From Psococerastis gibbosa (Eukaryota > Arthropoda > Insecta > Psocodea > Psocidae), in contig OZ020487.1 of NCBI GenBank assembly GCA_963971405.1, forward strand, positions 23,297,371-23,361,370: 64,000 nt of DNA, in the 5' to 3' direction. Positions 14,301 to 64,000 of this stretch are shown in pieces. The stretch's first letter is position 1. Every line of letters begins with the position of its first letter. Below the pieces are notes generated by a model. It did no database searches, was not told where the DNA came from, and worked only from the letters and a program-made list of their open reading frames with translations. The position numbers were made by a program, and so were the translations under genes.

Positions 14301-17300
14301 GTTTTAACTGTAAATTTCTTTATGCTTTTTGCAATTTATTTTCACAGGATGTATGCTGATGTGTTGGAATGTGAAGTCGTTGAAAGTATACTAGATTTGC
14401 TCTATAGCCAATTGGACCATATGTTAAGCCAACATATTGCTCAAGTTACCTATACCGCTAAGGAACCATTGCAAAACGACGAAGATGGCTTCCAAGAAAT
14501 AGAAATCAAGCTTCCAGAGATGGGCGATCGTCGTAATAGCTCTGTCCGAGGATATAGCTTGGAAACCACACTAGGGGATTTCTTAGTCCTTGTTCGTAAA
14601 ATTGCCTCAAATGCGACGGTAAGGGGATTTTTTACTCAGCTTATAATTTAGAAAAAATGCTAACCTGGCAACGCCACCTCACAAAAACTCTGAAGTGAGA
14701 CTTCGCTCCAAAATTCAGATACGATAATTTTCAATTTTTTAATGAATTAATTATATGAAATTCAAGATGCTTATTATTTGAACCAGGCCTAGACAATAAT
14801 TTGCTCCACGAAGAATGTTTTTAAACGCCCAATGCTTACGTTATGGGATTTTTTCGCGCCAATTTTCCCTATCATCGCTAATACTATGCCAAGCATCTCA
14901 TTTAAGTTTGTACTGAAGACAAATCTAGTGTAAATACTAGAGTTTTTACTTTTTGAAAAGGATTCCGGTTTATTACCTTATCTGATTGATTCTACATGAA
15001 AATAGAGGAAATTTTAAATTTAGACTAATATCCAAAAAAAATAAAAAATAAAAAAAAATAAAGAAATCGAACCAGCCAAAATGCGTGCCATTTTCATGGA
15101 TGACGTCACGCGTACATAATTTTGAAAATGACCGCCTTAGCTGAATATTAATAGATGGGTTAAGCATAGGGGCTTATTTTTGGAATTAAGTACACGTAAC
15201 GTCATCCAAGAAATGGCGCGGCGTATTTGGGATGGTTCGAAAATCAGTGTTATAAATAAACTATAAAGAGTTGGATATTAGTGTGAATTGCAAATTTTCC
15301 TCTTTTTTCAGTAGAATCCATTTCAACAGTAAAAATAATTTCTGTTTAGAACTCATTTGCTGACTGAGCCCTCTTTTTCAGGTTCTGCGATGTTTATCGT
15401 CGGAAAAATGGGTCCTAACACTCTTGCTAATAGTGAGCTCCCGTGGAAGAAGACCCGTAGTGGTTGGATTGCGACCACGTCTTTTGGCAGTCCAACTTCT
15501 GCTGGCTATCATGCCCGAGTCTGCTTTGAATGGTATAGGTCGCAGGAAAACCTGCGTTCAAAGTCTATTCAATGAACTTGCCCATATTATGTGGACGATT
15601 CCGCCGGTAGTAGCTCGTGATGCCGCTGAAGCGAAGCTGCATGAACTAGACACCAAACTAAGAAAGCTTAATTCACCAGGTAAGTGCTGAAGATTTTATG
15701 ACACGATTTCCAGCCCTCAACTGCCGATTTAAAAAATAATGGATATTTGTTTCTTCGATTGCTGACGAAAGCAAAAGAAGTTCGTACTTATACTGAAAAA
15801 GGGGACCCGTGTTCTGAAACATCGGAGGAAAAAGAAAACCACCAAAATAAGTTAGCAGGACAATGGGGGCTCTTTTGAACCGTTTCAGAGTTTCAAGTTG
15901 AATAAAAGTTTTGTATGTAGTCTAGAGGTAGGACGGACATCCAGAGATTTCTAGATTGTTTTCTGCCAATAACAGACCTTGGCACTATCTCAAATTAGAG
16001 GAACGCCTAAAGCGTTGTGCTATCCGAAAACAGTTAATGTTCTGATTTCACTACTCTGTTTCTGCTATGTATCAAATTTCAAAAATTTCCGAAATTATAT
16101 TACAGATGGTGGACCAGATACGCAAGGGGAATTGATTGAAATCGCATTTGACAGCGAGAAGTGTATCTACAGCTCTGTGGAGAATAGTCAGACTGTTGTT
16201 CATGAGTCGGGGGTACGGGGTTATGCCCTGGCCAACGTAGCAATTACCTCGGGCTGTTACCAGTGGAAGTTCCTCATTGTAAAGGAGAACAAAGGCAATG
16301 AGGGAACTTGCGTCGGTGTTGCCAAATGGCCAATCAAAGACTACAGCCATCGCTCTACAAGTGACATGTGGTTGTATAGAGCTTACAGGTCCGTTAAAAG
16401 TCCATATACATTTTATTTTTGACGACATTTTGCATTCCGTCCAAGACAAATCTTAGGCGGCTATTCCACCGACGTGGATTTTGAATGTGAATGTGTCATG
16501 ACGTGGTAGCAGACACCATTAATAAGTCTCTACCATATTATAACTTAATTTATAATAGATAAGTTAAGTATCTACATCTCCTTAAAATATGGCAGAGACT
16601 TATTAATGATGTCTGCTACCACGTCATGACTCATTCACATTCAAGATCCACGTCGGTAGAATAGCCGCCTAAAAGTCCATATACATTTTTTGACGACATT
16701 TTGCATTCCGTCCAGGACAAATCTTACCAATATTTAAAGAATGCTGGTCTTGAAGTATCATAATGTAACCGAAATTAGAGGATATGGAAAAAAACTGGGC
16801 TTGGCGGGATTTGAACCCACGATCTACGCCTAACCGGGGCGTCGTCTTAACCGCTAACCTGTCTAGCAACACGAATCATGTTAATTTGAGCATAAGTAGA
16901 GGATTTGGCGATTACTGGACCTGTCGGGTCTTGTGGTCCAGCGGTTAAGACGACGCCCCGGTTAGGCGTAGATCGTGGGTTCGAATCCCGCCAAGCCCCG
17001 TTTTTCCATATCCTCTAATTTCTGTTATAACGAGGAGGTTTTTCCCCTTCAACCAAAGTTAATTTAGTATCAGTGTTATATATACCATATAATACTACAA
17101 TGTATATCATCATGTAGGAAGTTACCTCAATGTAAGTGAAATAATAGTGATGAAGCAGTAAAATCCGGGATGATAGGGTGTGGTCGATCTAAAAGAGTAC
17201 TTCCAATCGTTTCGTCAACATCTGCGGTCGACATCTTCAATGGAACTGCAGTTGCTGCTGATCATCCTAGATAGAATGCTAGAAAACTACGCAGCTCCAC

Positions 17301-20300
17301 TGAAGATGTTGACGAAACGTTTGGAAGTACGCTTTGAGATCTTCAGATTCTACTGCTTCATCGCGTAACTCCGCCCGTGAAAGTCTTTGAAATTATATTG
17401 ACATACGTAATAGTGCCAAAGTGATTGGGGCCATACTCTATATTAGTAGTAGTATGGTTGGACACAGTCCCAGGCCACGGTGTGGGCCCATTGGACAGTG
17501 GACCTACTGATTAAAGTGGATTCCGAACCACTTGGGAAACACAGTGAAGTCACACAATTAGTTCGGAGGTGACCAGGACAAGTCCTACCATGCTTCCATA
17601 CCGGCACTGTGCACACGACCAAGTTATCTGCAGATTTGAACCTGCTCTGGACCGCTGGATTCAACTTGGTATGGCTGTCCGGTGATACTCTATGTACTCT
17701 TGTAGATGAACGATTTGAAAATGTAGTGTACATTTATGAGACAGTCCAAGGGGGAAAAACCTTACAAGTGTAAAAATGAAATATCGCCACTGTCAAAAAT
17801 ATCACTTCCCCTAGGAGATTTTTCCTGCGCATTTTGATAAGATTTGTGCCTCTTTCCAACACCGCACCGATCGGCCACAATTATCAAAATTGATTAATGC
17901 ACAAAACACAAAGTTGGTGAGGATGTGTAAGTACATATCATGTCGCCAAATGTTGACAATTATTTCTTCTAAGGTATGCTATATTTGTAATAGCTCTACA
18001 ATGGATGTTTCCTGTGAAATTCGCCCTTGTACAAAAATGTTCTTAATACATTACAATTAACGTTAATTTTGATTGCAGTGGAAATTTATATCACAACGGA
18101 GAGTTACCTCTATGTCTTCCCAATTTCACCCAAGGAGACTACATTACTGTGATTCTTGACATGGAGTCCCGCACGATAAGTTTTGCTAAAAATCGTGATG
18201 ACCCAGTTGTTGCATTCGAGGAAGTTGATGGTTCCCCTCTTTATCCTTGCGTCGTTTTTTATAGTACTAACCCTGGAGAGAAGGTACTTGCTTTAACTGT
18301 TACTAGGGTAATTACTTTAAGACAATGTTTGATTGTAATTGATTTATATATACTTGTTTCAAAGTTTTCAAAGTAGCTGAACCTCTGAGTAATGCCTTAT
18401 GGTCTCAGGGGCACAGACGTGACAACTTCTATTCTGTACCTTCTCGTGGTAAAGATGGAAGCGCGTAATGGTGACTGAACAGATAGGGGACCGAGTTTGA
18501 GCCAGGATAAGCGAAAAACACAGTCTTTTCTGTACAGGGCACTCTTGTTTCCTGGGGTTGGGAAACTGGCCCTGAAGGTGGAGGAACTCAATGAACAATC
18601 AATGGCATAAGGGTGCAGAAGGGAACAGGAACCGCTACATCACAATACCCTAGTATAATCATCATGACATTAATTGCCATGATGATCGCCGCTCTTCAAT
18701 AGAAGTGGCATTTAAAGAAGAAGAAATATTTCTTATTATTATTAAGAGACAATGGGTTGGGGGAAAAGCCTTACAAGTGTACAATATAAAATATCACATC
18801 CCTTCGCAGAAATTGTATTCATATTGGTGGATGATATGGGCCACAATTCTTGAGCATGACTTGTGGGAAAAAAACGGTTGGTGGCAGTACCCGGAGGAAG
18901 GAGTTCCAAAACTGCGACCAATCGGTTTTAGTGACGGTCACATATATAAAAATGCAGGGGAGTATTTCTTCTAAGGGATGTGACATTTTTGATAGCTATA
19001 CATTCCTGGGAAACTCAAGTTTCTCAACAACAAAAACGCGTAGTAGGGGTGTCCGACTTGCTCTTAATTCAATAGTCTATGTGAGTCTGGGTAGTCATGA
19101 ATTGGGAGAACAACATGAGTCTTCGATGGCATAGTGGTAGCTTGTTCGTACTTGTGCAAGTCTCTACACATCATGCGATCGGTGACCTGTCGTAACTCAA
19201 CACAGGTATTACCTACAGAGGCGACTGAAGAGGTTATTCGGATACATTCATTGAATTGTTTGCATGCAAATAATCTTTAAAAAAAAAAAAAAAAAAAAAT
19301 TTGTCCTTTGGGACTGAATTTTGTTGAAATCTCTTATCCTCCTTTTGCCACGCTTAATTGGTACGATCCATGTAATTTATATTGCATGCGATTTAGTGGC
19401 AAAATATGTAATGTAAAAAATTATTTGATTTTTTTATTTTTATTATTGTCTACAGGTTAAAATTACCGACATGCAAATCAGGGGCACTCCTTGGAACCTT
19501 CTCCCTGGTGAACCATTCTGTGCACCCGAGCCGGCAGTGATGGGGGAAGCGTTTGTGCATCTGATACGTGAGCTACATGTCCATCCGCGATGGACAACAG
19601 AAGTAAATTCGTGTCTTACTGAAAGACTGGAACTTTGCAAAGCTATTCTTGCCGGAACCGATGAGGCCAAGGAGGAAAAGCTTGAGGATGTTGCCGCTGA
19701 AAAAATAGCGTCTGGTAATGAGGCAAACTTCCTGTCGGAAGTACAAATTGAAAACCTTTGCGTTGAGGTAAGAGTCAAATTAAGTGGCAACTGAAATTAT
19801 ACAGTGAAAGTCTGAATTTTCGGGTGCATTAACATAAAATAAATTCTTGTTGTATTGTTGACTAAAAGCTCCCGATTGTTCTAGGCTTGGCCTGCTCTTG
19901 CTGTTATTGGCGGAGTGGATCGAGGACTTCGTATGGGAGGTCAATGCATACACAAACCTAGTGGGAAGACCTGTTACGTTATGGGGAGCTTAAAACCTGG
20001 ACTACAGACTGTTAAAGTTCATTGGAAGGATGGATCTGTGAGGTACGGTAGTACAGTATATTTTGAATAAAGCTGGGTAAAACAAGAAATTGGTTTATTT
20101 TTATGTATAATATGGCGTTTAGATGTCCTGTAGAAAGGGTAAACCAGGTGGTTAAGATGGGCGTCCGCGGCTCAAACAATGATTCGGCAGTTGTGACCGA
20201 GCGTAAGCGGGTGGTTTCTAGTGAGCTAAATACAGTCAACATCAAGCTAATATTTAATAGTTTCTGCATTGACTTGGTAGTATTTTGACGTTTATAAAAT

Positions 20301-44995: not shown

Positions 44996-47900
44996 GTACA
45001 AGTGTATTTGTTGGGCATTTTTCACCAAGGCAAAGAGAAAAGCACCGGTGTGAGATAATGAATTTGTACAATTTTTTCGGCCGCCATGATTTTCCCTATC
45101 CTAAGGCATTCGATTATTGTTAGGTTGAAGAATCCCATTGTACAGATGGGTATATTTGTGCAATGTGCTAACACAATACTGCTTAATACAGCAAGAGGCA
45201 ATGCATTAGAAATATAGATTTTCCTCTACAAAAATTAAGCAACAAAAACTTGAAAGCAAACTGATTGGATTTCTTACTTACTCTATTTAGCATCTAAATC
45301 ATGCTAGAAGTTGTAAAGCATCAATGAAAGAGTTATACGTCAATATCATTCATTCTTATTTTTTTGATCCAGAACCAAACGTTCAAGTGGAAAGCGACAT
45401 AGTATTACATTATATTGTAGTATTATATGGTATATATAACACTGACATTAAATTAACTTTGGTTGAAGAGGTAACCTCCTCGTTATAACCGAAATTAGAG
45501 GATCCCGCCAAGCCCAGTTTTTTCCATATCCTCTAATTTCGGCGACATAGTATGTTTTGTTTAAATTAATAACCACTACAACATACAATATATTACCTAC
45601 ATATAATATATGTGAATTTAAAAAAATCGTTGGAGCATGTTGGTTACATCCCAAATGAAGCAGAGATCAGGAGAGAGCCCTGGGGCTTAAACTAATTAAA
45701 AATTAAGAAAAAAAAACGTTTTACACGTCTTGTGGCCTACTGAGCGAGAGACAAATGATAATAATTTGATAACAATTTTGCCTATTTAAAAATATGCACG
45801 TATGTGAAAATACAAGTACGTTGAGGAGTCCAGGAAGAATTACCGCCAATGTCGTTGCCCAGTTTTAATTGCGTAGTCAGGGCAGTTTTTTTTAGTGGAA
45901 AATGTGGGATATAATTACAGGCCAGCCTCATGGCTCTACGAGGCCTCTGGCAAATCAATCGGATGGTACCTAGGTTACTAGACTTGCATTTTATTGGACT
46001 TTAAGGTCTGTCTGCAAATAACTGATTATTTATTTAAATTTCTTTATTTACCAAGAGGTTTATGAAAGAAACTAAGTGTATGGAGCCTATACTTCGCAGA
46101 TTTCAGTAGTGCAATATTAAATTACTTAAGAGGACATGCTACTTAGAAAATGAGTACCCCAAAATTGGTTGTTTTTATGGACTTTTTATTTTTTATTTAA
46201 TTAACAAAGCAAATCATTAAAATGGAAGTTGTAGACGACTGCTTCATGCATCATGTAATAGGAAATATTAAATTTTTGGTACCTTAGTTCTTTCATAAAT
46301 ACCAGAACGGACTAAAATTATGCGTATTCTGGGATTTTTGGAAGAAAACAAACCGAAAAGTAAAAATACCCGATTATATGATGCACGAAGTAGTCTTCTA
46401 CAACTACCATAAGCCAAATCTTTAATGACTTGCTTTGTTAATTAAATAAAAAATGAAAATTCCATAAAAACAACCAATTTTGGGGTACTCATTTTCTACG
46501 TAGCATGTCCTCTTAAACAGATTTTAAAATGTGTCATCCTAAAGTTAGAAACAAACTAAACCCAGCTGCAGTCAAGATATCCGCTTATTAAATTTTATTT
46601 TGTTTAACCAAGGAATTAATTTTCCCCAACATAAGAGGATTCAGAAAAACCTGGACTTGACGGGATTCGAACCCACCGTCCGGGGCGTTGTCCTAACCGC
46701 TGCGCTGGACCACAAGCCGGACAAGTACAGTCCCTTCTAAATCTTCTAAGATTCTTATTGCTAGACAGGTTAGCATAGCTAAACAACTATCTTATTGAAC
46801 AGGTCTGTGAGCTTAATTTATTGCCTGATAGGCGTAGATCGTGGGTTCGAATCCCCCGAGTACAGTTTTTTCTTAAATCCTCTGGGTTAATTGTAACAGT
46901 GGGCCGAAAGGCCCGAAATTCGCCCACATGGAAAATAAAGACAATTTTCTTTCTTTCTTCTAATTTTGGTTCTAACGAGGAGATTGAGGAACCAGTAGAA
47001 TCCGGGCTGATGGGCCGTGGTCGAAGTGAAAGTGAACTTCCAAACGTTTCGTCAACATCTGCGGTCGACATCTTCAGTGGAACTGCGTAGACTTCTAAGA
47101 TTGTATCTCGGAGGCTCAGCAGCGACTGTGAGGGCAGGAGGTTGTGCTCTGAAATTTATACTAAGATGCGGGGTGGTGGGGGGTGGAGGCGGAGTCATCC
47201 TCGCTCCTGATTGGCTCCCTACTACCTCAACCTGATTTCCGGATGATGACACCAGTTTCTTTGCTGTAGTCTTCTTTAAGGCTGGATACCAAATTCTATT
47301 GACCTTTAATCCTTCTTCTTTCCTATTGAAGTTATGCGGGTGCTTGTGGATCTCTATAGCCTCTCTGTGTAACCGAGGGTGGTATGAAGAAGTTGTAGAA
47401 AGTACTGTAGCATCTTGAAATTGTATTATGTGACCGGTTTGTGTTAGAACATGCTCAGCGATTGCAGACTTCTCCGACTGTAGAAGACGGCAGTTTCGTT
47501 TATGTTCATCAATCCTGGTTTTTAAGCTTCGTTTCGTAGTACCTATATAGACTTCTCCACACGAACACGGAATCCTGTAAACACCTGCTGACGTCATCGG
47601 GTCCCGGCTATCTTTGGCTGATCTGTACAAACTATTTAATTTTCTCGTAGGCTTGTAAATAGTCTTCACATTGTGCCGTAAGAAGAGTTTACCTATACGG
47701 TCTGAGACTCCCTTGATGAATGGAAGGCAGAGTAGGCCAGTAGTACTTGGGGGTGCGTCTTGCCGAGCGGATCTATTCATGCGGGGTCGGATGGCGCGGG
47801 CTATTTCTCGTGCGCTGTATCCATTCGATTGCAGTGCCGTGTCTAAGTGCTTGAGTTCCCGTTGAAGAAATGTTGGTTCGCAGATCCTGTTGGCACGGTG

Positions 47901-50900
47901 GATGAGTGTCTTTATCATGGCTCGTTTCTGGCTCGGATGATGGTTAGAATTCTTGTTCAAGTATCTATCCGTGTGGGTCGGTTTTCGATACACTGTGTGG
48001 CCCAGAGTTCCGTCTTCTTTCTTCGTTACCAACACATCAAGAAAAGCCAACCGACCGTTGTTTTCCTGTTCCATCGTGAATTGGATGTTTGCATGGATCG
48101 AGTTTATATGATTCAGGAAATTCTCCAGGTTCTTTTGGCCATGACTCCTTACCACGAAGGTGTCATCAACATACCGGAACCAACATTTCGGCTGTAGAGG
48201 GGCTGAGTTCAAAGCTGTATTTTCAAATAACTCCATGTAGAAGTTAGCGACTACTGGACTGATTGGGCTGCCCATCGCGACTCCATCCAATTGTTCATAG
48301 AAGGGCGAATTCCATTGAAAATACGTCGTTGTCAGCACATGGTGGAACAAAGCAGCAATGTCATCAGTGAATTTTTCTTTTATCAACTCCACAGTTTCCT
48401 GGATGGGTACCATTGTGAAGAGTGACACGACATCAAAGCTTACCAGTATATCATCAGGTTCCAGGCGGATGGTTTTCAGTTTTTCGATGAAGTGCGTAGA
48501 ATCCTTGATGAACGACTCATTATCCCCTATATGTACCTGAAGGAGTTTCGTAAGGTACTTCGCTAAGCCATAAGTGGGGGATCCGATCGTACTAACAATA
48601 GGGCGCAATGGTACATCCGGCTTGTGGATTTTTGGTAGGCCATATAGTCTCGGTGGCAAGGCTTCTGATTGAACCAAATCCCGTTTGTCTTCAGTGGGTA
48701 ATGAGGAGTCTTTGACCAGCTTCCTAGTTTTGGCCAAGATTTTCGAAGTTGGGTCGCGGTTCAGAATCTTGTAGGTAGCCGGGTCAAGGAATTCTGTAAT
48801 CTTCCTCTTGTAGTCTCCCGTGTTCATGACCACCGTGGCATTCCCTTTATCTGCCGCAAGAATTAAGATGTCCTTGTTGTTGTTTAAGCTCTTTAATGCC
48901 GCGCGTTCCTTGGTGGATATATTGGGCACCGGGGGTTTGGCGTAGTGAAGAATTCTAGCAGATTCCCGTCGTATTTCTTCAGCTGCCGTTGGGGGTAAAT
49001 GTCTCAGTGAGGACTCAATGTTGGCGATGATATCTTCCGTCGGGATGCTCCTTGGTACCACAGCAAAGTTTCCACCTTTTTCAAGAATCGATCGCTCGTC
49101 CTCGGAAAGTGGATGATCCGACTGGTTGATTACGATACGGTTCTTATCTAGTGTGGGTGCTGGTGTAGGCTTTTCAGTCGCAAGGAGACCTTCGAATTTC
49201 TTGATGTGGCGTTCTGTGGTCTTCATCTTGTGTGTTGACATCGATGAAAACGTCAACCTATCCACTTTGTCCCAATCTGTCCGGTTCAGTTTACCAGCCA
49301 ACAGCAAATGAAGATTGAGTAAGTCGTGGTCTAGTAGTGCGAGCTGTTTTCGTGTGAAGTGAATCCGTTCCCGCAAGAGAGCACGTTCAGTCCGGTTGTA
49401 GATCCGATTGCAACTAGCCGATTTCAGGTTTCGTTTCTGTCGTAGAAAAGTAGGTATAACATCATTGTCCCTGCATCTTAGTAGAAATATCAGTGAACAT
49501 AGGAGATGGGACTTCTTCTTACGGAAAGATTCCAGTCGTCGAATGAGGTGATGAACTTCCTCCCCGTAGAGGCGAACAATATAACTGCAAAGGCTTTCAC
49601 GGCCGGGGTCGAATGAGGAACCAGTCGGATCATCCACTTTCCGAGGACGAGCGATCGATTCTTGAAAAAGGTGGAAACTTTGCTGTGGTACCAAGGAGCA
49701 TCCCGACGGAAGATATCATCGCCAACATTGAGTCCTCACTGAGACATTTACCCCCAACGGCAGNNNNNNNNNNNNNNNNNNNNNNNNNNNNNNNNNNNNN
49801 NNNNNNNNNNNNNNNNNNNNNNNNNNNNNNNNNNNNNNNNNNNNNNNNNNNNNNNNNNNNNNNNNNNNNNNNNNNNNNNNNNNNNNNNNNNNNNNNNNNN
49901 NNNNNNNNNNNNNNNNNNNNNNNNNNNNNNNNNNNNNNNNNNNNNNNNNNNNNNNNNNNNNNNCAGTCGGATCATCCACTTTCCGAGGACGAGCGATCGA
50001 TTCTTGAAAAAGGTGGAAACTTTGCTGTGGTACCAAGGAGCATCCCGACGGAAGATATCATCGCCAACATTGAGTCCTCACTGAGACATTTACCCCCAAC
50101 GGCAGCTGAAGAAATACGACGGGAATCTGCTAGAATTCTTCACTACGCCAAACCCCCGGTGCCCAATATATCCACCAAGGAACGCGCGGCATTAAAGAGC
50201 TTAAACAACAACAAGGACATCTTAATTCTTGCGGCAGATAAAGGGAATGCCACGGTGGTCATGAACACGGGAGACTACAAGAGGAAGATTACAGAATTCC
50301 TTGACCCGGCTGCCTACAAGATTCTGAACCGCGACCCAACTTCGAAAATCTTGGCCAAAACTAGGAAGCTGGTCAAAGACTCCTCATTACCCACTGAAGA
50401 CAAACGGGATTTGGTTCAATCAGAAGCCTTGCCACCGAGACTATATGGCCTACCAAAAATCCACAAGCCGGATGTACCATTGCGCCCTATTGTTAGTACG
50501 ATCGGATCCCCCACTTATGGCTTAGCGAAGTACCTTACGAAACTCCTTCAGGTACATATAGGGGATAATGAGTCGTTCATCAAGGATTCTACGCACTTCA
50601 TCGAAAAACTGAAAACCATCCGCCTGGAACCTGATGATATACTGGTAAGCTTTGATGTCGTGTCACTCTTCACAATGGTACCCATCAAGGAAACTGTGGA
50701 GTTGATAAAAGAAAAATTCACTGATGACATTGCTGCTTTGTTCCACCATGTGCTGACAACGACGTATTTTCAATGGAATTCGCCCTTCTATGAACAATTG
50801 GATGGAGTCGCGATGGGCAGCCCAATCAGTCCAGTAGTCGCTAACTTCTACATGGAGTTATTTGAAAATACAGCTTTGAACTCAGCCCCTCTACAGCCGA

Positions 50901-53900
50901 AATGTTGGTTCCGGTATGTTGATGACACCTTCGTGGTAAGGAGTCATGGCCAAAAGAACCTGGAGAATTTCCTGAATCATATAAACTCGATCCATGCAAA
51001 CATCCAATTCACGATGGAACAGGAAAACAACGGTCGGTTGGCTTTTCTTGATGTGTTGGTAACGAAGAAAGAAGACGGAACTCTGGGCCACACAGTGTAT
51101 CGAAAACCGACCCACACGGATAGATACTTGAACAAGAATTCTAACCATCATCCGAGCCAGAAACGAGCCATGATAAAGACACTCATCCACCGTGCCAACA
51201 GGATCTGCGAACCAACATTTCTTCAACGGGAACTCAAGCACTTAGACACGGCACTGCAATCGAATGGATACAGCGCACGAGAAATAGCCCGCGCCATCCG
51301 ACCCCGCATGAATAGATCCGCTCGGCAAGACGCACCCCCAAGTACTACTGGCCTACTCTGCCTTCCATTCATCAAGGGAGTCTCAGACCGTATAGGTAAA
51401 CTCTTCTTACGGCACAATGTGAAGACTATTTACAAGCCTACGAGAAAATTAAATAGTTTGTACAGATCAGCCAAAGATAGCCGGGACCCGATGACGTCAG
51501 CAGGTGTTTACAGGATTCCGTGTTCGTGTGGAGAAGTCTATATAGGTACTACGAAACGAAGCTTAAAAACCAGGATTGATGAACATAAACGAAACTGCCG
51601 TCTTCTACAGTCGGAGAAGTCTGCAATCGCTGAGCATGTTCTAACACAAACCGGTCACATAATACAATTTCAAGATGCTACAGTACTTTCTACAACTTCT
51701 TCATACCACCCTCGGTTACACAGAGAGGCTATAGAGATCCACAAGCACCCGCATAACTTCAATAGGAAAGAAGAAGGATTAAAGGTCAATAGAATTTGGT
51801 ATCCAGCCTTAAAGAAGACTACAGCAAAGAAACTGGTGTCATCATCCGGAAATCAGGTTGAGGTAGTAGGGAGCCAATCAGGAGCGAGGATGACTCCGCC
51901 TCCACCCCCCACCACCCCGCATCTTAGTATAAATTTCAGAGCACAACCTCCTGCCCTCACAGTCGCTGCTGAGCCTCCGAGATACAATCTTAGAAGTCTA
52001 CGCAGTTCCACTGAAGATGTCGACCGCAGATGTTGACGAAACGTTTGGAAGTTCACTTTCACTTCGACCACGGCCCATCAGCCCGGATTCTACTGGTTCC
52101 TCATTCGACTCCGGCCGTGAAAGCCTTTGCAGTTATAACGAGGAGATGTCAGTGCTATAATGTACCATAATGTAATACTGCAATATATAGTCAATAATGG
52201 ACGTAGATATAGGTTAATAGCCGATGACTAGCTTATAAAAATATAGTATTTGTTTCTTCTGAATGACGTCACTGTGCGATGTTGGAAATTGCATCTTGAG
52301 TAGATTACATTTTTGTTAAAATTCATTTTTGCGACAATTTTCATGCTGTTAAGGCTTTCAAAAATTGTTTCACATTCTTCTTTATAAGCGTTTCATAATA
52401 TATCACTGGTGCAGACAACATAGCTACACTTTTTTTCATCCTATTTGTGACAAATGATAGGTAGACCTCTCTCTGCACTGAACTATGGACTTTGAACTTT
52501 CTCTTTTTTAACACCTATTGTTCTATGTAGCTGTGATAATGGCATGGAGCGTGAATTAATAAATGCTAGAAAATTCACGTCCGCACGTTTCAAATCACGT
52601 TGCCTATATTCTCAAGTTTGATCACTTTTGACGATAAAAAATAATGCCCTTTTAGGGAGATTCATCTACCTATTGAGATGACGACCAATGTTGACTATCG
52701 GAAAATTTCTTCACAACTTTTCATTTCATGACCCCCTGAGCCTAAAACCACCCTCCGTTCAAAATGTTATATATTTGTATATACATATACGATATGTACT
52801 GTATGTATGTATATCGATTTTAGGAAACACTCTAACTTCCGTAAATATTATCTGATTTTGGTGAAACTTGGCACAAAAATCGATCATACAAATGTCTTGA
52901 TCGAGTTCGTTAACCAGCTAAATCCACTATTTAGTTAGAAGATGGCTACCGATTGAAACCTTATATAATTCATATCTCAAGTTAATATTGGTTGCAGAGG
53001 AATGAATTAAAATTTGACTGAAAGCCCGTATTATTATCTACGATAATGGTTATCAACACTTTTTACGACAAATCAATGATTTCAAGATGACGTCCAGTCA
53101 AAGTAAAAATAATTTAATACGTAAAAGTTCATAGTCGTCATTGTTTGGAACACAAGAGTGTTTGGTGTGTTGATGTTGTGGTCGGGAAAATAATGAAGTA
53201 TTTTTTTATTTTTTACTGTAGTGCAGAGGAAAAGCAGGGTCTGCGGAATCTCCCTACACCTTATCGGCCAGAGCCGAAAGGGATTTTTGTTTTGTTGCTA
53301 AGCCAACCTAGTGAAGTTAGGACTAAAAAGCCCTCTCTTACCCTCAACTAAAAAAACCCTGCTTCACATGCCCTCCGCAGAATGGACAGAAATTGCAGCC
53401 AATGTGAGATTCGAACTAAAAACTGTTCGGGTGAACGTCCGTACTACTACTCTACATGTCTTAACGATCGCTGTAATTGTCGGCAATATTATAGGAAATC
53501 GACTGTGCCGATGTTTAGGGATAGGGTAAAACATGTCAGCTGACAAATTCGTCAATCAGGCAATGGACCCGATACGCCCTAAGTATGATGCATTTTAGAG
53601 ATGCACCTGAATAACCTTATCTTATCTTAACCTTTTCAGTCGCCTCACTAAGCGACTTTAATACTTGTGTCGACTTACGACAAGTCACATTGTATTGCAG
53701 TATTATATGGAGTATATAACTCTGACATTAAATTAACTTTGGTTGAAGGGGTAACCTCCATGTCTAGTCACCGTTCGCATGGGGTGTAGAGACTCGGACA
53801 AGTACAAGCAAGCTACCACCATGCCACTGAAACCCATAAAAAGCCCATAATTGAAGAAGGAAGTTATTCTGTATACAATTTGCATTCTGTCCTTCTGCAT

Positions 53901-59000: not shown

Positions 59001-62000
59001 GGTTCTGAGTTTGAATAATATGTTTTGTTTTGGTGTTGATTCCCGCAAACCCTCCTGTTCAAATGTAATCTCCTTATTAACCGAAATTAGAGAATCATGA
59101 CTCTCTTGAACCTAAGTAAATTTAATAAATTTATTAATACATTGTAGTATTATATGGTATATATACTATACAACACTGACATCAAATTAACTTTGGTTGA
59201 AGAGGTAACCTCCTCGTTATAACCGAAATTAGAGGATATGGAAAAAACTGGGCTTCTAATTTCGGTAATAAATTAATAATTAAAGAACTGGTCCGAGTTT
59301 ACTCGAACATGTTTTCCAATTTATCAAAATTAGTAGAAGGGAAAATGAATAATTTCATGGTAAATAATTTTCCTATGATTAAATTTTCCGATATCTCCGG
59401 GGGGGGGGGGGGGTGTGGGGGGGGGGGGGGGTTGTCCACCTGACTCACGAGGTAAATTCTAGGTAGGTCACACCAACACAATACCACACACCAATAATGG
59501 CAGGGCATGCAATGCATTTGAGCGTAAATTTTCAATCATTTTTTCAAAAAAAAACATTGTTGCACAAAACAAAATAGTTTTTTGCGTAAGCAACCTGTCC
59601 GGTTTCGTTACTCAATTTAACACCTAAAATATGCCTGAAGGTAGACATTATCGTTAAAATTGTTTTTTAATCATTTTTCATGAAAATTGAGTTATTTTTA
59701 TTTTTTTACCCCCAGAAGCAAACTATCAAGGGGCAAACGACCCCCCCGCATTTTGTTAACATTAATAACGACTACAATATATGTGAATTTAATAGAAATC
59801 GTTGGAGCCGTTTTTGTGAAAGTACCTACTTGGTCAATATGTAGGTTTTTTCAAGCCCCCCCCCCCTAGGACCCCCCTATTTACGCCAATGCTCAATTTA
59901 ACACATAAAACATGCCTGAAGCTGGAAATCATTGATAGAAATGTTTTGCAGAATAATAAAACTATTTTTTAGTCACTTTTCATTAAAATTTAGTTATTTT
60001 TGTTTTTTACCCCTAGAAGAAAACTATCAAGCGGCAAGTGGCCCCCATTTTATTAACATTAATAACGTCTACAATATAGGCTATGTGAATTTAAAAGAAA
60101 TCGTTGGATCCGTTTGTGAGAAATAAATTATTTAGGAGTAATTTTGGAGTTTTTGAGAATAACCCCCCCCCCCAAATTGAGTTAGCCCAAAATAAAAATG
60201 AATTGTCCCTAGGTATGATTTTTGTGAACCTACACGCCAAATTTCATCAAAATCGACCGAGTAGTTTGCCCGGAAATCGATGAACAGACAGACAGAGCGA
60301 CAGACAGACAGACATTTCGTGAAAACCACAGTTCCTGGGACCTCAAAACGTGTAAATCCGTTGAAATCTCGGAATCGAAAATTTCAACCATCACAAAGCT
60401 TTCCTTATACTATACTATACGCATAAATTGGAAAGCAGTAAAACATTGCCTTTATGTAGTAAAGTAGCTCCGAGACCTGTTCAGTTAAATAGTTGTGTAG
60501 CTATGCTAACATGTCCATATCCATATCCATAACCTAAACCGCGCACGGGCTGACTGAAGCCTTGCGGTATATGATTTTATTGTATCAATATAATGTATTG
60601 TACTGGATCAATATAATAATAATAATAATTCGAATCTTGTCGAAGACTATGATATAGACTATAGAGCAAGTGAACCTTGTTCGTGGTGGACTTTTGTTAG
60701 TAGTAACACGATGCCCTGACAAGGGAGAGATCGTGGGTTCGAATCCCACCAACTCCGGACTTTTCTTGACTCTCTAATTTCGGTTTTTATGATAATTTTC
60801 ACAAGTCTTATAAAAAAGAAATACTTTGCCCAATGTAAACACGGAATGGCAGGCTTATCTTGTTTCTTTTATGCCAGACCCGCTCCCGCAACCGCCTGCT
60901 ATAAACGTGTCCTAATGAGTCGTCGGAACCAACATTGGTCGTATTAACTGTGTTACTGCCTACTTTCAGTGGCTATGATGGAACCGTACGGCTTTGGAAT
61001 CCTAATGGTGGGCTGGAACATACTTTAGTATTCAGAAAGAACGAGCATGTTTATGGAAGCGAGCTGTCGGGTGAACTGTTGGGCCCATTGGCTTGGTGTA
61101 ACTCAGGAACTCATATTGCTGCTGCCATCGAAAATGTGGTTAACATTTGGCATGTACCAGGTACGTGGAATACGAGCTTATTTTTAAAACCTTTTGTAGA
61201 CGCCCAAAACCTCCGTGAAGGTTAAAGGCTTGGAGGATGACGGTTGCGATATAGCCTATTCACCAAGAAAATGTAGTGAATTCATGCTTAATATCCGAAA
61301 ATAGAGAAAATCAAGAATAATCTAGACAATGTGGGACTTTTGGATGGTTTTCCGCAGATCACACCAGTACATAAAAATCTTCTGAAGTAGATTCTGTCGT
61401 TTTGCACCAACCATTCACCTAACACAGTTCCTCCCGTGACAAATTTCTCAGCGAGTTCGAATTGTCTGCAAGTAGCGGGCCTAAAGCTTTGGATATTATT
61501 GTAAATTAGAAAGTTTCCTTTATTTACATGCAGAATCGTTTAAGCCAATAAACCGGAACACTTTTCCAACTGTTAGAACTCCATATTTTGTCAAAAAATG
61601 AATTCATGCTTATTGTTACAGAGTCGTCCGGGCTCCCTGTATGCTTCATGGATACGCTGCCAAGTTGTGTAACATCATTGGCATGGCCGGAAGTGGGGAG
61701 TGATCCTGATGTAGTTGAGAAGTTGTTGATTGGATGTATATCCGGTTCAACACACCTTATGACAGCAACTAATTGGAATAAGACCCGCTTAGACCTGTCG
61801 CAGTTCTCGGGACACAATGGTGAGAGTGACCGTACTACAAGGGCTAGTCTCATAGCAGGTGGGTTCGTAGTGGCAGTGGGTGTCCGCTGCAAAGGCTGCT
61901 TACACGCTCACCGAAATGGTAGAGGGGCTATGCTTAATGGGGAAACCTACTGGTATGGGTACGGGGTAAGAACAAGCAACGGTATACTGACATCTTAGCT

Positions 62001-63867: not shown

Positions 63868-64000
63868 CGATATGTAGCAGCATTATTTGGTATAAAATAC
63901 TGACATGGAACTAGCTTTTGTCGAAGAGGCAGCCTCCGTGTTATAACCGAAATTAAAGGGTTTAGAAAAATTTGGGCTTGACGGGAACCCACGATTTATA
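63868..64000 (-). mobile_element. SINE-A copy running off the right edge
   Basis: Complement of tail, GTGTTATAACCGAAATTA body and part of the head (GACGGGAACCCACGAT). Diverged from the reference, with the head cut by the window edge. Confidence 0.65.

Follow-up and report, generated by a model that had tools for sequence, protein, structure and literature searches.

The question raised by this locus is whether one ribozyme motif can hold both the stop codon of an open reading frame (ORF) and the start codon of the next one. In a stretch of 64,000 nt from the psocid Psococerastis gibbosa (contig OZ020487.1, positions 23,297,371 to 23,361,370; hereafter the window), the initial annotation had described a 45-nt hammerhead-like motif at the end of a Penelope-like element (PLE), with the TGA of the reverse transcriptase (RT)/endonuclease ORF in helix II and an ATG overlapping the ribozyme core in a second frame. 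The letters and coordinates of both codons agree with that description. We propose that the locus is the tandem junction of a PLE whose pseudo-long terminal repeat (pLTR) is entirely coding, and that the stop and the next start lie in one minimal hammerhead; judging from the sequence, we give this reading a probability of about 0.8. The features on which it is built are the anatomy of the junction, an unbroken frame in three units, a single usable AUG, two preferred 3' ends and a TATA-like box. The element in the window is referred to here as family A.

A hammerhead motif with a stop and a start codon

The elements of the motif are as follows.

52006..52050, + strand: minimal type I hammerhead motif with helix I of 5 bp, helix II of 6 bp and no helix III (descriptor scan, Markov controls and genome counts)
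52006-52010 (TTCCA) and 52046-52050 (TGGAA), + strand: helix I, in the family A copy
52011-52017 (CTGAAGA), + strand: hammerhead core, plus one extra T at 52018
52017..52019, + strand: ATG of the next unit, its A being A9 of the hammerhead core; frame +1 relative to the RT ORF
52019-52024 (GTCGAC) and 52032-52037 (GTTGAC), + strand: helix II
52034..52036, + strand: TGA that terminates the RT ORF, located on the 3' strand of helix II
52038-52041, + strand: GAAA box
52041-52044, + strand: palindrome ACGT, in place of helix III
52045..52046, + strand: predicted cleavage site, after T52045 (motif geometry and analogy to the cut site of Poseidon of Anolis carolinensis, PAc)
47038..47082, - strand: the same hammerhead in the left copy, with its stop at 47052-47054

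The type I boxes CUGANGA and GAAA are present together with helix II, and one extra U stands between A9 and helix II. Since the two halves of ACGT directly abut, helix III is impossible in a monomer. The hammerhead pairing has a folding energy of -9.6 kcal/mol, and the minimum of -10.4 kcal/mol is reached through one additional wobble pair. A structural descriptor (in order: helix I, CTGANGA, helix II, GAAAC, GT and H, with a minimum of 4 bp for either helix), composed after the motif had been seen, found two matches in the window, this motif and its inverted twin at 47082-47038, and none on either strand of 200 first-order Markov versions of the window. The motif was not listed by Rfam, either at the gathering score over the whole window or at E ≤ 10 in 51900-52200. 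Read directly from the letters, the ATG opens a reading of 40 residues in frame +1; the predicted cut would lie 26 nt beyond this ATG, hence 29 nt inside the downstream ORF.

Complete tandem units

The 409-Mb assembly (68 contigs) was searched with the junction as query, which gave 54 matches; 40 of 1118 candidates were scored. Among the matches listed, direct hammerhead ATGs were exactly 2629 bp apart at four tandem loci, L031 (the same as L039), L038, L035 and L054. At L031, L038 and L035, a frame without interruption leads from the 5' ATG to the TGA inside the 3' hammerhead and encodes 882, 882 and 881 amino acids, respectively; in L054 the same ATG is followed by a stop after 69 amino acids. 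The earlier proposal that the 5' ribozyme would start the protein and the 3' ribozyme would end it, with the ATG of the 5' pLTR in frame with the RT, was thus borne out in three of the four units. In these three, M1 is the only in-frame methionine before residue 154. With 882 codons and a stop, the ORF (2649 nt) is 20 nt longer than the repeat, so that in L031 and L038 the first base of the stop lies 17 nt past that of the next ATG; in L035 a T-to-A change moves it one codon upstream, to the border of the loop and helix II, and the distance is 14 nt. Family A has no non-coding pLTR between stop and start, as the stop falls beyond the next start.

The overlap of consecutive ORFs is consequently 20 nt in L031 and L038, and 17 nt in L035, an arrangement that could let ribosomes re-initiate on the AUG just upstream of the stop, so that a polycistronic tandem RNA would yield several proteins. 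At position -3, the AUG has A6 of the core, and an A there is a favourable start-codon context. Re-initiation after an ORF of 882 codons, on the other hand, is rare in eukaryotes in the absence of a dedicated signal, and we regard such coupling as improbable.

A sister family and selection in both frames

A second family, B, shares 72-74% protein identity with family A. In its copies L062-L064 the motif and the TGA are at the same place as in A, so that stop and ATG again share one motif; a stop inside the hammerhead was seen only in A and in this diverged sister family. Synonymous (pS) and nonsynonymous (pN) differences per site between A and B were estimated by the Nei-Gojobori count, using three B copies for the stop frame; decayed genome copies were excluded as evidence on two-frame constraint, since dead copies drift. 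In the stop frame, pS was 0.82-0.85 and pN 0.19-0.21 over codons -300 to -60, and 0.45-0.52 and 0.11-0.14 over codons -27 to -10. Over the last nine codons, none of the 5.3-6.0 synonymous sites had changed, and there were one or two nonsynonymous changes. In the ATG frame, none of the 6 synonymous sites of codons 1-9 had changed, compared with 3.0 of 23.8 in codons 10-40 (L063); further on, codons 64-123 gave pS 0.65 and pN 0.086 (A against L072) and codons 124-260 gave pS 0.76 (L072). Codons 64-123 are accordingly under selection as protein between A and L072. The fragment L072 begins at about residue 64, and its first methionine is at 154. This pattern indicates that both frames are read as protein, and by these counts the stop frame is coding right up to the motif.

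Hammerheads in other families

Genome-wide, the pattern CTGANGATGN{8,30}GAAACGT gave 2338 + 2458 = 4796 matches, against 10 + 5 = 15 in the reversed control. These 4796 motifs, all with GATG after the core, compare with 352 motifs (238 in the control) that carry a base other than T at the T place; the counts leave out motifs having T but no G after the core. Because TG follows the core in so many motifs, the extra U of this hammerhead stands where the AUG requires it.

Some of the motifs form a family C (CTGATGATGGGAGTAGCACCCACTCCCGAAACGT) with the same geometry and new helix II letters: compared with A, four of the six pairs are changed on both sides and one on one side, and all are still paired (by eye). 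Family C consists of 34-nt motifs and five short loci with no ORF linked, and its ATG is partly imposed by the search pattern. Among the matches listed, some C-type motifs carry another base for the T; per genome length they are rarer than the ATG type.

Family F has 40% amino acid identity over an RT stretch of 117 residues. Its hammerhead, CTGATGATGGTATTTTACCGAAACCGGTC, preceded by TATATAAAG, again has the ATG at A9 and keeps helix II with other letters. From this ATG the frame runs on into MMKFHEVT, which resembles MKYHEVT of family E; the F copies read here were less than full-length units. Family E shows 37-38% identity and has a TATATAA; one locus (L073, 1-4301) is a direct tandem with a period of 2877.

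Insertion ends and inverted pairs

The motif in the window belongs to a composite insertion.

46985..52137, no strand: composite PLE insertion, two inverted family A copies head to head (inverted arms, flanks, and 3' ends at +86, L033, and +120, L032, from the ATG)
46985..49631, - strand: left copy, nearly full length, 5'-truncated after the start codon, ending at 3' site S1
49619..52137, + strand: right copy, 5'-truncated, ending at 3' site S2; it spans a 200-N gap at 49764-49963
50108..52036, + strand: RT/endonuclease ORF of the right copy, the part after the gap, with its TGA within the hammerhead (Pfam RVT_1, E = 4.9e-11)
52017..52137, + strand: duplicated N-terminal codons 1-40, forming the pLTR 3' end with tail; site S1 falls at 52103 and site S2 at 52137

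By eye, a target site duplication (TSD) of about 12 nt, TAACGAGGAGAT, bounds the insertion. Its two inverted copies match RVT_1 of Pfam with E = 4.9e-11 and 6.4e-11. The C-terminal GIY-YIG endonuclease domain of EN+ PLEs had no Pfam match at E ≤ 0.001; a stretch of 19 residues looks by eye like the GIY-YIG motif. The RT domain, the pLTRs, the tandem and inverted copies, the optional tail and the short TSD are hallmarks of these PLEs. The segments 49622-49763 and 49964-50105, which flank the gap, are an identical 142 nt; the gap is probably an assembly join, and the centre of the insertion is uncertain.

Inverted composite insertions are present at many other loci. Among 100 distinct 3' ends, 38 fell at +85 to +89 and 52 at +118 to +127 from the ATG, and two of the remaining 10 read on as 5' units of tandems. 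A survey of the nearest pair per locus (L002-L063) gave 42 inverted pairs, in which 10 had an end outside both classes; in all 32 others one end of each class was combined and the same class never occurred twice, with the reservation that 20 of these 32 were fetched with a query bearing the longer end, the other 12 coming from the RT protein search. A TSD of 9-15 nt, most often 12, was present in 33 of the 42 pairs. The pair of the window falls outside the survey classes because its left N-terminus was matched first, and its ends were taken from the survey of 3' ends. Family F, judged by eye, has an 11-nt TSD and ends at +78 and near +123. The combination of the two end classes suggests a fixed scheme in which each strand is primed from an RNA site of its own.

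These preferred ends lie in or beside the piece of DNA in which A and B hardly differ: identity per 30-nt window is 97-100% over 52010-52099, compared with 37-90% over 50900-52009. Such a contrast could have arisen by template switching between the families, with no constraint involved, and ends at this position would allow the chimeras to form. Against this, C and F have a motif that can be recognised despite its different letters, so that pairing has been kept and not only copied, and differences between A and B in helix I and codon 16 show some independence. We consider template switching possible, though somewhat short of an even chance. On the comparison of A and B, either constraint beyond that on the protein preserves the DNA between the motif and the preferred 3' ends, or recombination has exchanged it between families.

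A TATA-like box inside the C-terminal codons

Upstream of the motif, the following features were found.

51928..51933, + strand: TATAAA, a TATA-like box within the C-terminal codons, 89 nt upstream of the ATG; family B has it at the aligned position
51915..51945, + strand: C-terminal arm of a possible long-range stem, spanning the TATA-like box
49469..49499, - strand: N-terminal arm of the possible stem in the left copy, about +201 to +231 from the ATG

In A and B the box (TATAAA, or TATATA in one B copy) is aligned inside codons that have diverged, SINF in A and GIKV in B. Its distance to the ATG was 89 nt in nine of ten A and B copies and 98 nt in the tenth, and none of the ten had an intervening ATG. 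The box would be the promoter from which the downstream unit is transcribed, and the coding sequence of A and B may thus contain all four elements, the promoter, the ribozyme, the stop and the start. In F and E the TATA box sits in non-coding pLTRs, which we treat as a common and not a defining feature of PLEs.

The box is also covered by a possible long-range stem. Its 31-nt arms pair at 26 of 31 positions in A. In B, five arms set against one B N-terminus pair at 23-25 of 31 (G-U included), in the homologous register, which is unique among 551 positions. Of 14 changed columns, eight keep the pair, two gain and three lose one, about six being expected paired. Compared with 60 shuffles, the stem stands out in A copy L038 (21.5; maximum 17.1) and barely in L031 (19.0; maximum 18.9); B (15.4; maximum 19.1) and E do not stand out. 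In a tandem RNA, the hammerhead and the two preferred 3' ends would lie between the arms of this possible stem. A 35-nt stem in family F was rejected, as it corresponds to the inverted partner copy.

Evidence against the proposed reading

Several observations weigh against the reading proposed here. Since A and B have nearly the same letters here, B is weak independent evidence, and the placement of the stop in both may be one event. In family F the stop, a TAA, lies outside the hammerhead: it starts 66 nt upstream of the core, within a non-coding pLTR. The interval from the F TATA box to the hammerhead ATG contains two further ATGs, at -10 and -3, and another in-frame methionine is at residue 28. 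The junction of family E has no hammerhead recognisable with descriptors that require CTGANGA, which ribozymes without this box escape, including any in family E. The stems, whose maintenance among diverged copies the initial annotation had named as a check, gave a mixed result: helix II is kept in B (6/6 pairs in four of five copies and 5/6 in L071, by eye), C and F, and helix I goes from 5 bp in A down to 3/5 pairs in B. One B copy (L063) has a changed core box (GAAAATG), and another (L064) has an extra stop one codon ahead of the usual Cys. Boxes, ATG and stop are intact in 88 of 100 contexts, a figure in which motifs mapped gaplessly onto broken copies and one with Ns were kept as misses; it says little on selection, because the copies were fetched by similarity and are mostly young. 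Finally, PAc with a mutated hammerhead is reported to have inserted in vitro all the same, and reads at the cut site were not found (PMC11167929), so cleavage may not matter for movement.

Part of this evidence fits an ordinary PLE hammerhead that overlaps the start in the published way, in which the stop is accidental: the first in-frame one met after loss of another, uncoupled from the start and adding no constraint. PAc has been described with its start codon inside the hammerhead (PMC11167929), family F starts in the motif and yet stops upstream of it, and the A and B motifs are nearly identical letter for letter. What an accidental stop leaves unexplained is the protein selection on the C-terminal codons up to the motif, and the in-register TATA-like box inside those codons. 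We find this explanation fairly probable, and it is compatible with the anatomy favoured here.

The lack of helix III, the weak helix I of B and the missing Rfam match would also suit a dead relic, the letters of which are kept for the N-terminal codons only. Opposed to this are the absence of synonymous changes in either frame inside the motif (few sites) and the A-to-C changes in helix II, all still paired. In addition, two reviews, in the portions available, report PLE hammerheads (Cervera and De la Peña 2014; Lunse et al. 2017) that are of type I, lack helix III, lie in pLTRs and are thought to act as dimers (PMC6155905, PMC7761336). The family A motif shares their form, their absent helix III and their location, and its ACGT palindrome agrees with the dimer model. 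A dead hammerhead is, in our opinion, quite unlikely.

Proposed mechanism

For a tandem PLE with a fully coding pLTR, the favoured reading, we propose the following model. The hammerhead AUG would be the first AUG on an mRNA transcribed from the TATA-like box. A cut after 52045 would take the start codon off the released RNA, so that an RNA would be either translated from the hammerhead AUG or cleaved, and cleaved monomers might serve as template or be recircularised. Reverse transcription would begin inside the downstream N-terminal codons, at about +86 on one strand and about +120 on the other, as the inverted pairs indicate, and this priming would recreate a 3' pLTR carrying the hammerhead with its stop and start. 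The stop probably arrived by loss of an earlier one and read-through into the pLTR. In the most economical history, that loss would have occurred in the ancestor of A and B, and the read-through C-terminus would have been kept as protein with promoter and ribozyme in place. We make no claim of selection on the placement of the stop. The wider idea that the unit has no non-coding sequence, with promoter, ribozyme, stop and start stacked in C-terminal codons and the ribozyme cut switching the RNA from messenger to template, is put forward only tentatively.

Comparison with known systems

PAc is the closest parallel. In the accessible text its hammerhead overlaps the start codon, the cut site lies 26 bp downstream of the start codon, and RT starts 111-118 nt into the ORF, with the tail between two start sites and both strands alike (PMC11167929). 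The tail structure, the tandem units and the start of RT inside N-terminal codons resemble family A. That paper describes an ORF-pLTR junction and tested RNA from -145 upstream of the start, whereas the pLTR of family A is coding; the family A stop is inside the hammerhead, and the words 'stop codon' are absent from the text of the paper as available (PMC11167929). In Adineta vaga, Pen2a has a pLTR that includes the first 12 amino acids of the ORF, or 22 with the tail, and a 9-bp TSD; like family A, it has inverted pLTRs, a tail on one of them and a putative TATA box in the pLTR. Unlike A, its 218-bp pLTR is not described, in the part available, as coding past the first residues, and the word hammerhead does not occur there (PMC3846280). 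The L1Tc Pr77 of trypanosomes is, from partial sources, another short retrotransposon stretch with promoter and ribozyme roles, as proposed for A; it differs in being a ribozyme like that of hepatitis delta virus, at the 5' end of another class of element.

The initial annotation knew of no description of a core shared by stop and start in two frames. The start half is already published for PAc (PMC11167929), and the stop in the same motif seems new. The available portions of the accounts of minimal PLE hammerheads hold nothing on stop codons (PMC6155905, PMC7761336), and neither literature searches nor the parts consulted of PMC11167929, PMC6155905, PMC3846280, PMC6431247 and PMC7761336 showed a coding pLTR whose hammerhead holds the stop as well as the start.

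Other features of the window

17148..17397, no strand: an older inverted pair of solo pLTRs from the same family; the minus copy ends at +86 and the plus copy at +120

In the plus member of this pair (17249-17397, + strand), 13 nt of the helix II region are missing between two GATGT repeats. A dispersed repeat at 45426-45521, 53706-53801, 59160-59255 and 63884-63979 holds letters resembling the target site of the composite insertion, and the PLE may have landed in a copy of it. Two protein scans and one motif scan of viral contigs found no relative.

Significance

With thousands of motif copies, several families and at least three intact complete units, this genome makes start-site mapping, covariation analysis and cleavage tests feasible. 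If the cut separates the start codon from the ORF, a testable role for the hammerhead would be the choice between messenger and template.
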